From positions 1 to 36,338 of IMG/VR virus record IMGVR_UViG_3300050343_000022: a DNA stretch of 36,338 nucleotides. The stretch is one strand, 5' to 3'. Origin of the DNA: a virus. Shown piece by piece: positions 1-36,338 of this stretch. Position 1 is the stretch's first letter; each line of letters begins with the position of its first letter. Below the pieces are notes generated by a model. That model did not search any database and was not told the origin of the DNA. It saw nothing but the letters and a program-made list of their open reading frames with translations. The translations under genes and the position numbers were made by a program.

Positions 1-60
1 TTTTTCTCATACTCTCTTTTCACATTATGAAATTACCCTGCCCCTGGTGAGGCCTACCCC

Positions 61-174
61 TGTGGATAAATTGTGGATAACTTGTGGATAACTTTTATGC
101 ACCAATATAGTGCTGTGGATAACTTGTGGATAACTTTATGCACCAAAACAGTGCTGTGGATAACTTGTGGATAA
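61..174 (+). other. DnaA-box-like array, possible replication origin
   Basis: Seven perfect TGTGGATAA 9-mers (complement TTATCCACA, the consensus DnaA box) start at 61, 72, 83, 114, 125, 155 and 166, all in the same orientation. Boxes within a group are 11 bp apart, one helical turn. Groups are separated by 30-31 bp blocks that each contain a GCAC-N7-GTGC palindrome. The density and phasing suggest an initiator-binding array at an origin or a master regulatory region. An AT-rich stretch follows at 230-360. Binding by host DnaA is an inference; a phage protein could read the same boxes. Confidence 0.8.
99..154. promoter_or_regulatory. Two GCAC-N7-GTGC palindromes, NtrC-site-like
   Basis: GCACCAATATAGTGC lies at 99-113 and GCACCAAAACAGTGC at 140-154, each between DnaA-box pairs. 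The outer bases, the spacing of 7 and the AT-rich centre match the general form of NtrC enhancer sites known upstream of enterobacterial glnA. No sigma54 promoter was noticed beside them, so nitrogen control is only a hypothesis. They could equally be operators for a phage protein. Confidence 0.5.
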
Positions 175-221
175 CTTACCACACCGGGGGGTATACCCAG
201 CCCTGGTGCAAAGGTCTTGGT

Positions 222-5622: not shown

Positions 5623-6555
5623 ATGGCACTAGGTTCTAATCATGTCACCAAGACCACTGCGGATAAGTTTATCCCAGAGATTTGGAGTGACGAAATCATC
5701 GCAGCATACAAGGCTAATCTTGTTGCTGCAAACATGTTCAGCAAGATGTCTTTCAAAGGTAAGAAGGGCGATACGCTTCATATTCCGAAGCCTACTCGTG
5801 GTTCTGCTTCTGTTAAATCAGCTTCAACTCAGGTTACACTGATTGCAGCAACTGAGACAGAACAGCAAGTTCTTATCGACAAGCACTACGAGTACTCACG
5901 TTTGATTGAGGACATCGTTGAGACACAAGCTCTAAGCTCTCTACGTAAGTTCTACACTGATGACGCTGGTTACGCTCTAGCTAAGCAAGTTGATACTGAC
6001 TTGATTCAGCTTGGTCGAGCAGTTGGTACAGGTACTGCTTACTCTACTGCTGCTACATCTACTAATGCTTTCATTGGTTCTAACGGTACAACAGTCTATA
6101 ACAGTTCATCATCTAACGCTGCTGCGTTGACTGATGCTGCTATCAGACGTTCTATCCAGAGACTCGATGATGCTGACGTACCAATGACAGATCGTTGTAT
6201 GATTGTTCCACCATCAACAAGAAACACTCTTATGGGTATTGCTCGATTTACTGAGCAAGCTTTTGTTGGTGAGCAAGGTTCAGCAAACACAATCCGTAAC
6301 GGTATGATTGGTGATATATATGGTGTAATGTCTTATGTATCAACCAATGCTGATAGCGGTGCTGGAAGCTCTGGTACTGACCGTATTTGCCTACTTGCAC
6401 ACAAGGACGCTTTTGTTCTTGCCGAGCAGATGGGTGTACGTTCTCAGACCCAGTACAAGCAAGAGTACCTCGGTACGCTATTCACATCAGATATGCTTTA
6501 CGGTGTAGCTGAGTTGCGTGATAGCTCTGCTGTAGCTCTCGCTGTTCCTGCTTAA
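5623..6555 (+). CDS. Major capsid protein
   Basis: This 310-aa protein is of the T7-like, HK97-fold capsid type and builds the icosahedral head. Typical features are the N-terminal IPEIWSDEI segment, the flexible-loop region KKGDTLHIPKP near residue 45, and the C-terminal YLGTLFTSDMLYGVAEL stretch. It has a strong AAAGGAAA ribosome-binding site. Codon choice is visibly richer in C-ending codons than in neighbouring genes, as expected for the most highly expressed gene. It is followed by a strong terminator. Confidence 0.93.
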   Translation: MALGSNHVTKTTADKFIPEIWSDEIIAAYKANLVAANMFSKMSFKGKKGDTLHIPKPTRGSASVKSASTQVTLIAATETEQQVLIDKHYEYSRLIEDIVETQALSSLRKFYTDDAGYALAKQVDTDLIQLGRAVGTGTAYSTAATSTNAFIGSNGTTVYNSSSSNAAALTDAAIRRSIQRLDDADVPMTDRCMIVPPSTRNTLMGIARFTEQAFVGEQGSANTIRNGMIGDIYGVMSYVSTNADSGAGSSGTDRICLLAHKDAFVLAEQMGVRSQTQYKQEYLGTLFTSDMLYGVAELRDSSAVALAVPA

Positions 6556-6567
6556 TTAAGTAGGTAT

Positions 6568-6604
6568 CTCCCCAGGCTCATAAGGTCTGGGGAGTTTTAT
6601 TATT
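6568..6604 (+). terminator. Rho-independent terminator after the capsid gene
   Basis: CTCCCCAG (6568-6575) pairs with CTGGGGAG (6587-6594) across an 11-base loop, followed by TTTTATTATT. It lies 12 bases past the capsid stop and would end or weaken transcription before the pqqA-like and fibre genes. Confidence 0.9.
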
Positions 6605-6671: not shown

Positions 6672-6767
6672 ATGACTTGGCAAGACTTCTGCCGTAAGCG
6701 TGAATTAAATAATCACAAAAAGCAACAACTACTTAAACTACGACAAAGGAAACACTATGTGGACTAA
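6672..6767 (+). CDS. 31-aa basic small protein upstream of pqqA-like gene
   Basis: The ORF starts at an ATG preceded by GGAGGG about 4 bases away, a strong site. The product ([12 protein letters not shown]... ending HYVD) is Lys/Arg/Gln-rich and probably a single helix. Its last 11 bases overlap the start of the pqqA-like gene, so it may act as a coupled leader for it. No family is recognised. It is too short for ordinary gene finding, but the ribosome-binding site and overlap support it. Confidence 0.6.
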
Positions 6768-6828
6768 ACCTGAATACACTGAGATGAGATTTGGTTTTGA
6801 AGTCACGATGTATATTGCAACTAAGTAA
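6757..6828 (+). CDS. pqqA: PqqA-like PQQ precursor peptide (23 aa)
   Basis: In PQQ-making bacteria PqqA is a ribosomally made 22-24 residue peptide. The radical SAM enzyme PqqE, with chaperone PqqD, joins its Glu and Tyr side chains, and these two residues become the cofactor pyrroloquinoline quinone. This ORF is exactly 23 codons, starts MWTKP and ends with the core RFGFEVTMY plus four residues. Glu15 and Tyr19 have the invariant E-x-x-x-Y spacing, and Arg11, Gly13, Val16 and Thr17 also match the consensus I remember. AAAGGA lies 6 bases before the ATG. No pqqB-E genes are in the window, so the peptide would have to enter the host's pathway. It overlaps the 31-aa ORF by 11 bases and precedes the main fibre gene. 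Recognition is strong; function in infection is inferred. Confidence 0.88.
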
Positions 6829-6837
6829 GGACGTATA

Positions 6838-8481
6838 ATGGCTATATTTAGAGGAGCAGGAGGACCAGGAGATGCCACAACAGATGCTGCTAATGAAGCT
6901 AGTGTAGCATCTACAAAGGCTGCTGAAGCTGCTGCATCTGCTACTGCTGCTGCGTCCTCTGCCACTTCTTCTGCTACCTCAGCAACTTCTGCCGATGCTG
7001 ATGCAACGTCAGCTTCTACTTCAGAAACTAATGCTGCTGCATCTGCTTCATCTGCAACTACTTCAGCAACTAACGCAGCTACTTCAGAAACTAACGCAGG
7101 GACTTCTGCTGCTAATGCAGCTATTTCTGCTACGTCTGCTGCTACATCTGCAACTAATGCAGCTACTTCAGAGACTAACTCTGCTACAAGTGAAGCAAAC
7201 GCTGCTACATCGGCTGCAACGGCTGCTGCAGAGGCTGCTGCAGCACTAGCTGCTTTTGATAACTTTGATGATAAATATTTAGGTGCTAAGGCATCTGACC
7301 CAACACTAGATAATGACGGTGACGCTTTAGTTGCTGGTGCATTATACTTTAACACTACTTCAGGTGTTATGAATGTGTACACTGGTTCTACTTGGGTAGC
7401 TGCTTATGTATCTGCTGCTGGTGTTTTACTTCAAGCTAACAACTTATCTGATGTTGCTAGTGCGTTAACGTCAAGAGCTAATCTTGGTTTAACTATAGGT
7501 ACTGATGTACAAGCACACTCTGCTGTACTAGATGCTACTACTGCATCATACACAACTGCTGAAGAGACTAAGTTAGCTGGTATAGAAGCCAGTGCTGACG
7601 TAACAGACGCAACTAATGTTACTGCTGCTGGTGCGTTAATGGATAGTGAAGTTACTAACTTAGCACAAGTTAAAGCATTTGATTCAACAGACTACGCAAC
7701 TGCTGCTCAAGGTACGTTAGCTGATAGTGCTATACAGCCTGGTGATAGTCCATCATTTGCTGGTTTAACAGTAGACACAAGCACACTTGCTGTTGACTCT
7801 ACAAACAACAGAGTTGGTATTGGTACTAGTAGTCCTACGGATCCATTAGATGTCGTAGGAACGATAAGAAGCAATGTTTCCTCCACAGGTGACTTTAACT
7901 TTAAAGCGACATCTACAGGTGGAGGACAATACCGTATTTATCCTGATGATGCAACTACTGCTAACCCAACCTGGTTTCATCAGACAAATAGTTCTGAAGA
8001 TCAAGCGTTTGTTATAGGTGGTGTGGAGAGGGTGCGTATCAACTCCAGTGGTAACGTTGGTATTGGTACGAGTAGTCCTAGTACAGAATTGGATGTTTCA
8101 GGTACAGTAAACGCTACATCATTTACAGGTAGTGGTTCATCTTTAAGTGGATTAGTTAGTCAGACATCTGCAACAGGCTCTGCTGAGATGCCGGCAGGTA
8201 CTACAGCACAACGAGACGTATCTCCTAGTGCTGGTTATTTAAGATTTAATTCTACTGATAGTTCTTTTGAGGGCTACGATGGCTCTGCATGGGGTGCTAT
8301 TGGTGGTGGAGGAGGAGCTTCAGGCGGAGGTTCTGATGCTATCTTCTACGAGAACGGACAAACTATTACTACAAGTTATTCAATAACAGCAAGTACTAAT
8401 GCAATGTCTACAGGGCCACTAACAGTTAATAGTGGTGTTTCAGTAACAGTCCCTAGTGGCTCAAGATGGGTGGTGTTATAA
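6838..8481 (+). CDS. Tail fibre / host-binding protein with Ala-Ser-Thr repeat shaft
   Basis: This 547-aa structural protein lies directly after the pqqA-like gene. Residues about 12-135 are an Ala/Ser/Thr/Asn low-complexity heptad region, probably a long trimeric coiled-coil shaft. A conserved FDDKYLGAKASDPTLDN segment follows, as in many marine phage fibres. Two RVGIGTSSP/NVGIGTSSP repeats (near 320 and 400) are beta-strand modules. The C-terminus is Gly-rich and ends VTVPSGSRWVVL, a module repeated in the next gene. AAGGA precedes the ATG. The receptor cannot be predicted. Confidence 0.85.
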   Translation: MAIFRGAGGPGDATTDAANEASVASTKAAEAAASATAAASSATSSATSATSADADATSASTSETNAAASASSATTSATNAATSETNAGTSAANAAISATSAATSATNAATSETNSATSEANAATSAATAAAEAAAALAAFDNFDDKYLGAKASDPTLDNDGDALVAGALYFNTTSGVMNVYTGSTWVAAYVSAAGVLLQANNLSDVASALTSRANLGLTIGTDVQAHSAVLDATTASYTTAEETKLAGIEASADVTDATNVTAAGALMDSEVTNLAQVKAFDSTDYATAAQGTLADSAIQPGDSPSFAGLTVDTSTLAVDSTNNRVGIGTSSPTDPLDVVGTIRSNVSSTGDFNFKATSTGGGQYRIYPDDATTANPTWFHQTNSSEDQAFVIGGVERVRINSSGNVGIGTSSPSTELDVSGTVNATSFTGSGSSLSGLVSQTSATGSAEMPAGTTAQRDVSPSAGYLRFNSTDSSFEGYDGSAWGAIGGGGGASGGGSDAIFYENGQTITTSYSITASTNAMSTGPLTVNSGVSVTVPSGSRWVVL

Positions 8482-34061: not shown

Positions 34062-34091
34062 TCGTTTTTTCGCAATATGAAAAATTCTTCC

Positions 34092-34207
34092 TGTTGACAA
34101 AATGTGGATAACTTTTAATGCACCAAAATAGTGCATGTGTATAAGTTGTGGATAACTTTATTCACCAAAATAGTGCAGTGGATAACCTGTTGACAAAATG
34201 TGGATAA
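34092..34207 (+). other. Second DnaA-box-like array, diverged copy of the first
   Basis: TGTGGATAA is found at 34103, 34147 and 34199, one-mismatch forms at 34136 (TGTGTATAA) and 34177 (AGTGGATAA), and TGTTGACAA at 34092 and 34188. Spacings are 11, 33, 11, 30, 11 and 11 bases. The order of boxes and intervening palindromes matches 61-174, so the two arrays are homologous. On the circular map they flank the operon at 34373-36010. This copy has more decayed boxes. Confidence 0.75.
34120..34176. promoter_or_regulatory. Two GCAC-N7-GTGC-type palindromes in the second array
   Basis: GCACCAAAATAGTGC lies at 34120-34134 with extended arms (ATGCAC/GTGCAT), and TCACCAAAATAGTGC, with one arm base changed, at 34162-34176. 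They are the equivalents of the sites at 99-113 and 140-154. The first is the closest of the four to the NtrC-site consensus as I remember it. Confidence 0.5.
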
Positions 34208-34307
34208 CTTTTTAAAGAGCAATTCCCGGCGGATTCCCGGCGACTTAAAACAATAATGTTTTTTTATTACAGTTATATGACAAAAGGCCTTTTTTCTTTC
34301 GCGCATT

Positions 34308-36117: not shown

Positions 36118-36338
36118 TTTTTCTCATACTCTCTTTTCACATTATGAAATTACCCTGCCCCTGGTGAGGCCTACCCCTGTGGATAAATTGTGGATAACTT
36201 GTGGATAACTTTTATGCACCAATATAGTGCTGTGGATAACTTGTGGATAACTTTATGCACCAAAACAGTGCTGTGGATAACTTGTGGATAACTTACCACA
36301 CCGGGGGGTATACCCAGCCCTGGTGCAAAGGTCTTGGT
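36118..36338. repeat. Terminal direct repeat, right copy
   Basis: This is identical to 1-221 through to the last base of the window. It includes the 17-bp motif, all seven TGTGGATAA boxes and both GCAC-N7-GTGC palindromes. If the genome is circular or circularly permuted, this copy is redundant. If it is a true terminal repeat, the array exists at both ends of the packaged DNA. Confidence 0.95.

Follow-up and report, generated by a model that had tools for sequence, protein, structure and literature searches.

The window, by which we mean the whole analysed stretch of 36,338 nucleotides, is an entire virus record in which genes for capsid, portal, terminase and primase-helicase were identified. 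Its left end (1..221) recurs at its right end (36118..36338) as a direct terminal repeat; because these 221-bp ends are identical, the window is most likely a complete phage genome, though the record is classed as linear. A tRNA search of the window found none. The major capsid protein gene (5623..6555; PHROG 267 major head protein, E 9.3e-51) is followed by a terminator-like hairpin (6568..6594), a 31-codon open reading frame (ORF; 6672..6767) and pqqA (6757..6828), the start of which overlaps the 3' end of that ORF. Immediately 3' of pqqA lies the gene of a tail-fibre-like protein (6838..8481), which has PHROG tail fiber matches and no Pfam match. All these features are on the plus strand. 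The capsid protein is less than 60% identical to each of 79 matching phage records, and the DNA polymerase closest to that of the window, at 51.5%, belongs to Pelagibacter phage HTVC103P.

The pqqA ORF translates into the 23-residue precursor peptide of PQQ followed by a stop codon. As the initial annotation had proposed, the peptide belongs to the PqqA family: it matches both family models at about twice their cut-offs, PF08042 with 43.9 bits (E 2.1e-11; gathering score 21.1) and the equivalog TIGR02107 with 47.7 bits (E 8.8e-13; cut-off 20). The match covers the full length of the peptide, which differs from known PqqA in its location on a phage and in the lack of pqqBCDE from the same genome. 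The latter point had also been claimed and was upheld, in that neither pqqB-E nor a XoxF-type dehydrogenase was found in the window (best tblastn E-value 0.18). Glu15 and Tyr19, the pair that is cross-linked in PqqA, are present at the described spacing of four residues. Moreover, an IUPAC pattern of PqqA had one match in the window and 0 in 100 dinucleotide shuffles, and a PHROGs search with the peptide gave no match. The 23-codon ORF itself stood; its ribosome-binding site, which had been called strong, is a Shine-Dalgarno-like AAAGGAA (6745..6751, plus strand) of fair and unexceptional quality. No promoter-like site was found near pqqA and the terminator-like hairpin stands upstream, so that expression of the gene needs either read-through or an unseen promoter. 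The 31-codon ORF, noticed by eye, is preceded by a GGAGG-like site. An ORF resembling it was seen in the relatives L129, L137 and L132, reaching further into pqqA in L132, and none was found upstream of pqqA in L131, L133 and L134. It is possible that this ORF serves translational coupling to pqqA, or that it encodes a small phage protein.

A search with the capsid protein confirmed at least 599 relatives of the window, and 80 loci were kept for comparison, 69 of which were testable, that is, with pqqA present or more than 400 nt following the capsid gene. The same peptide, which the initial annotation would have sought behind the capsid genes of related contigs, was indeed there: pqqA follows the capsid gene by ~70-240 nt in seven of the eight relatives with a capsid identity of at least 84%, and is cleanly absent from the remaining one (84%). 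Relatives encoding the same peptide as the window differ from it by one or two synonymous codons, with zero replacements. Among the other testable relatives, 0 of 61 have pqqA at the post-capsid place (one of these loci was read directly). Whole records were obtained for 20 relatives without a post-capsid pqqA, many of which may be fragments, and two of the 20 have pqqA elsewhere, encoding another, Methylophilaceae-like type of peptide. Because the post-capsid gene is present in seven of eight near relatives and a different peptide is encoded elsewhere in these two, pqqA has been gained more than once inside the phage family of the window.

The supposition that phage pqqA is a rarity had to be abandoned. 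A strict pattern was passed by 152 viral loci, equal to at least 150 distinct IMG/VR contigs (two were counted twice; the short ones are not each proven viral), in addition to ten carriers among named phages. A core pattern matched at least 120 IMG/VR stretches, all reading as PqqA; in one copy two residues are unreadable. A second pattern, with codons 14-23 left unconstrained, also gave at least 120 matches, of which 119 were taken together with the window for a count of conservation; one copy is cut by the end of its stretch, leaving the window and 118 contigs, 119 readable copies in all. Glu15, Thr17, Tyr19 and the stop after codon 23 are kept in 119/119, whereas synonymous codons vary, giving 106 distinct DNA sequences among the copies counted. 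Loss of the Glu/Tyr pair in related phages, which by the initial annotation would have refuted its reading, is not seen in these copies. As synonymous variation goes with no broken copy among the 119 readable ones, the pattern of substitution indicates that phage pqqA is maintained by selection on the protein. Each of 20 whole carrier records has a single pqqA, and neither pqqB-E nor XoxF was found in 234 viral stretches (1.92 Mb; stretches rather than whole contigs). The nearest ORFs on both sides run opposite to pqqA at 51 of 159 loci (isolates and two duplicate contigs included), and such copies therefore need a promoter of their own. Ten types of neighbour were scanned. Matches to named phage families were obtained for six (exonuclease, endolysin, major head protein, Sak-like annealing protein, terminase and translation repressor) and matches to families without a known function for two, while the other two matched nothing.

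Among named phages, a tblastn search of 50,697 INPHARED phage records with the window peptide and a common Methylophilaceae-type peptide returned one identical set of 12 records for both queries. Ten are true carriers, namely eight Methylophilales phages (Venkman, four Melnitz phages, MEP301, MEP401 and MEP402), Methylophilaceae phage P19250A and one Manatee Spring phage. Every named phage of the methanol-consuming Methylophilales found here carries pqqA. Fisher's test gives p ~1.6e-36, provided that the nine carriers with a named methylotroph host are all the methylotroph-phage records of INPHARED and no others infect such hosts, a completeness that is assumed in this statistic only. In long Venkman-like records pqqA is present in 6/13, and its occurrence among Venkman-like phages is frequent rather than universal. 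The gene had been predicted to escape annotation, and it does: the six records opened among the ten true carriers have no CDS annotated as pqqA at the locus, Melnitz-1 and the spring phage having a hypothetical CDS on the opposite strand instead, and for all ten carriers the match table gives no feature or merely 'hypothetical protein' beneath pqqA. In a plasmid collection, PqqA matches occur in 43 of 72,556 records, mainly of Rahnella, Paraburkholderia, Caballeronia and Acinetobacter.

In bacteria, the strict window-type pattern matched 55 stretches of a species-genome collection, mostly titled Betaproteobacteria or Burkholderiales. The PqqA of betaproteobacterium TMED22, the gene of which adjoins pqqB, is identical to the window peptide at 21 of 23 residues. 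In genome G023, which also has a window-type PqqA, pqqB, C, D and E follow pqqA consecutively, each above its NCBIfam cut-off. A 1.3-Mb genome (G152) has a pqqB, C, D and E cluster above the cut-offs with no pqqA within it, and PQQ alcohol dehydrogenases exceed the cut-off in 9/9 candidate genomes tested. The PqqA match, which is the sole link of the window to betaproteobacteria, makes these bacteria candidate hosts of this phage.

Several pqqA copies per genome are common in bacteria. Out of 300 genomes sampled from the order, 56 are PqqA-positive and 40 of these 56 have 2-7 matches; seven matches per genome were seen in G183 and G289 (loci L312-L319). Four genomes of 1.3-1.4 Mb, probably of OM43/Methylopumilus type judging by their size and peptide, have three pqqA copies apiece. 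All copies were read in three of them, two of which encode one peptide only, identical to that of P19250A, and the third three variants. No peptide is more frequent in the phage set than this P19250A-type one, which accounts for 24 of 120 rows. On the chromosome of strain FJNU-6, five pqqA copies are described in the available text of PMC9851590, and two are expressed much more strongly than the rest during PQQ production. Solo pqqA genes apart from pqqBCDE were seen in the bacterial genomes studied here as well, many behind a putative operator. The extra copies of methylotrophs resemble those of phages in standing solo and away from pqqBCDE, but differ from them in being chromosomal.

This putative operator is a palindromic site, CTCATGATTTTCATGAG, which by sequence comparison is common to bacterial pqqA copies and pqqB and has a version at many phage pqqA genes. 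After removal of redundancy, 80 of 99 bacterial pqqA upstream regions entered an expectation-maximization (EM) search, which yielded the motif nCTCATGATTTTCATGAG, with sites above 9 bits in 70 of the 80 and a log-likelihood of 859, compared to 62-71 in five shuffled sets. The same search of 114 non-redundant phage regions (of 148) yielded atTaATGATTTTcntTAt, with sites above 9 bits in 98 of the 114 and a log-likelihood of 539, compared to 56-73 for shuffled sequences. In both searches the seeds were enriched words from the same sets, and the bacterial loci are a non-random sample taken from PqqA searches. The phage motif lies 75-100 nt upstream of the start codon in 56 of the 98 regions, and a -10 box at a fixed distance behind it is weak only. 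Its second half is degenerate, which may reflect relaxed control. A matrix built from bacteria only reaches at least 10 bits at 30 of 148 phage pqqA upstream regions; the corresponding rate is 0.2% in shuffles and, for 1480 other segments on those phage contigs, 0.3%.

In five bacterial genomes the palindrome CTCATGAWWWTCATGAG was seen at pqqA and pqqB genes and at little else. With one mismatch allowed, the consensus has 15 sites in these genomes and its reversed control 0; 12 of the 15 precede pqqA or a pqqB-like gene, one precedes a rubrerythrin gene and two lie inside coding frames. These sites are a candidate for a dedicated PQQ regulon under an as yet undescribed regulator. The half-sites ATGA/TCAT recall the Fur box, and genes of the FUR family (PF01475) were seen near solo pqqA in two different bacterial genomes (L304, 700-1152; L376, 15361-15828); for these reasons a Fur-type regulator was considered. 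It was not adopted for the operator, since 12 of 15 sites in the five genomes stand at pqq genes, which is few for a global iron regulator. The rubrerythrin gene (PF02915) preceded by an operator-like site is that of G023 (position 1501 of L361), and may connect the site with oxidative stress or iron.

Six phage records were scanned for the operator. It is clear in Venkman, where the best site of the genome stands before pqqA, in Melnitz-1 and in the spring phage; MEP301 and P19250A have weak versions (4.6 and 5.1 bits), and in MEP402 it is unconvincing. A whole-sequence scan found no operator of at least 9 bits in MEP402 or in the window. Upstream of the window pqqA the best score is -5.6 bits, and the clade of the window is without operator.

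We propose that the window ORF is a functional phage pqqA, translated in infection, whose peptide feeds the PQQ pathway of the host; judged from sequence, we put the probability of this reading at roughly 0.75. The phage PqqA would be presented by PqqD, and PqqE would link Glu15 to Tyr19, in line with the chaperone role of PqqD and the cross-linking by PqqE stated in the available text of PMC9851590. After cross-linking, cleavage and then the action of PqqB and PqqC would yield PQQ. Each PqqA is consumed for one PQQ, while the enzymes of the pathway turn over. Because one PqqA is spent per PQQ, an extra pqqA alone could raise or maintain PQQ. More PQQ would sustain the activity of XoxF/MxaF-type alcohol dehydrogenases and energy as host expression falls, and a phage relying on host methanol oxidation would benefit from a PQQ supply that is held up. 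The gene has two layouts. In the clade of the window, pqqA belongs to the late structural region behind the capsid gene, without a host-type operator; in many other phages, including some methylophage isolates, it is a cassette that stands free behind a host-like PQQ operator. We further suggest, with a confidence slightly above even, that methylotroph phages repeatedly acquired the consumable of the PQQ pathway, the precursor peptide only, many of them under the host PQQ operator so that viral supply would track host PQQ demand, and that the clade of the window has instead put pqqA into the late capsid region, free of host control.

Several other explanations were weighed. The peptide might have a second role, for example in signalling or host takeover, the PqqA form being retained just for binding. 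Unexpected roles are common among phage morons, which counts in its favour, but the peptide has no feature beyond PqqA and its entire core is constrained, the cross-linked residues included; we regard such a role as unlikely. Marginally less likely is a decoy, in which the phage peptide would occupy PqqD/PqqE, so that PQQ synthesis drops and the host is redirected. Binding to PqqD/PqqE is expected from family membership, and no further pqq gene accompanies phage pqqA in the viral stretches searched. However, a decoy could dispense with the cross-linked pair, yet E15 and Y19 are kept in all readable copies; the P19250A peptide is identical to several bacterial copies, many bacteria themselves maintain several pqqA copies, and the host-like operator is better fitted by co-regulated supply. 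The initial annotation had offered substrate supply and decoy side by side, and of the two the former is favoured.

A neutral passenger, meaning fragments of host pqqA captured by chance and not kept by selection, would explain why phage peptides resemble or equal bacterial ones and why the gene is patchy among relatives. Against it, none of the readable copies is broken amid plentiful synonymous change (the second pattern demands MWTxP and EMRFG and is blind to breaks there), and the gene was gained repeatedly next to unrelated genes, the mechanically called ORFs of at least 60 aa that flank it at the 159 loci falling into 338 clusters, more than half of which (213) are singletons. In addition, pqqA is limited, among phage records, to methylophages and the one spring phage, and we consider a passenger a little more improbable still than a decoy. 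Misbinning of host DNA as virus has a negligible chance: the remaining two INPHARED matches, contigs of 'Acinetobacter phage' MD-2021a (CAKLQF020000010.1 and CAKLQH020000055.1), are bacterial-looking, the former, which was opened, containing a bacterial pqqABCDE cluster, and short IMG/VR contigs lack individual proof of viral status, but the terminal repeats, capsid, portal and terminase refute this for the window, nine matches are named phages whose records give Methylophilales or Methylophilaceae as host, pqqB-E and XoxF are absent from the viral stretches, and most neighbour types scanned match phage families.

The proposed supply of PqqA by phages has parallels among known auxiliary metabolic genes, of which psbA is the classical example. 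Two others, phoH and mazG, are named as such in the available text of PMC9004378. All three are host-like genes supporting metabolism in infection, as proposed for pqqA; unlike them, phage pqqA encodes a precursor peptide that is consumed, not an enzyme or protein subunit. Viral pqqA is already in print. In 2020, a study of Lake Baikal described PqqA in viral population VP_266, whose hosts are putatively methylotrophs, and proposed it as an auxiliary metabolic gene (PMC7678222, available text). That case is a single representative genome in which methanol dehydrogenase is encoded as well (same text), whereas the phage pqqA described here occurs on its own and was found repeatedly, in isolates and across many lineages. 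Viral pqqA, pqqE and pqqD from reservoir sediments are listed under phosphate solubilisation in the accessible text of PMC13188868, a catalogue entry from which isolates, conservation and regulation are absent. The available portions of OM43-phage papers hold no mention of pqqA. A full-text search of freely accessible journal papers listed none recognised as describing how common the gene is in methylophage isolates, that it was gained repeatedly, or that phages and bacteria have an operator in common; these three points are apparently new. If our reading is true, viral control of methanol oxidation would act through a 23-residue cofactor precursor that is unannotated in the six opened records, and the limiting role of PqqA would become testable in already cultured OM43 phage-host pairs. 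It would also point to a PQQ regulator that has yet to be described, with a binding site that phages have seemingly copied.

Two further observations were made. Clearly different PqqA types are present on nine viral contigs (L032, L086, L011, L020, L025, L031, L035, L082 and L123), and their sequences suggest that phages of further PQQ-making hosts may also have pqqA. In the window, arrays of the repeat TGTGGATAA lie near both genome ends (61-178 and 36176-36296) and at ~34.1 kb (34090-34212), and are perhaps replication or packaging signals.
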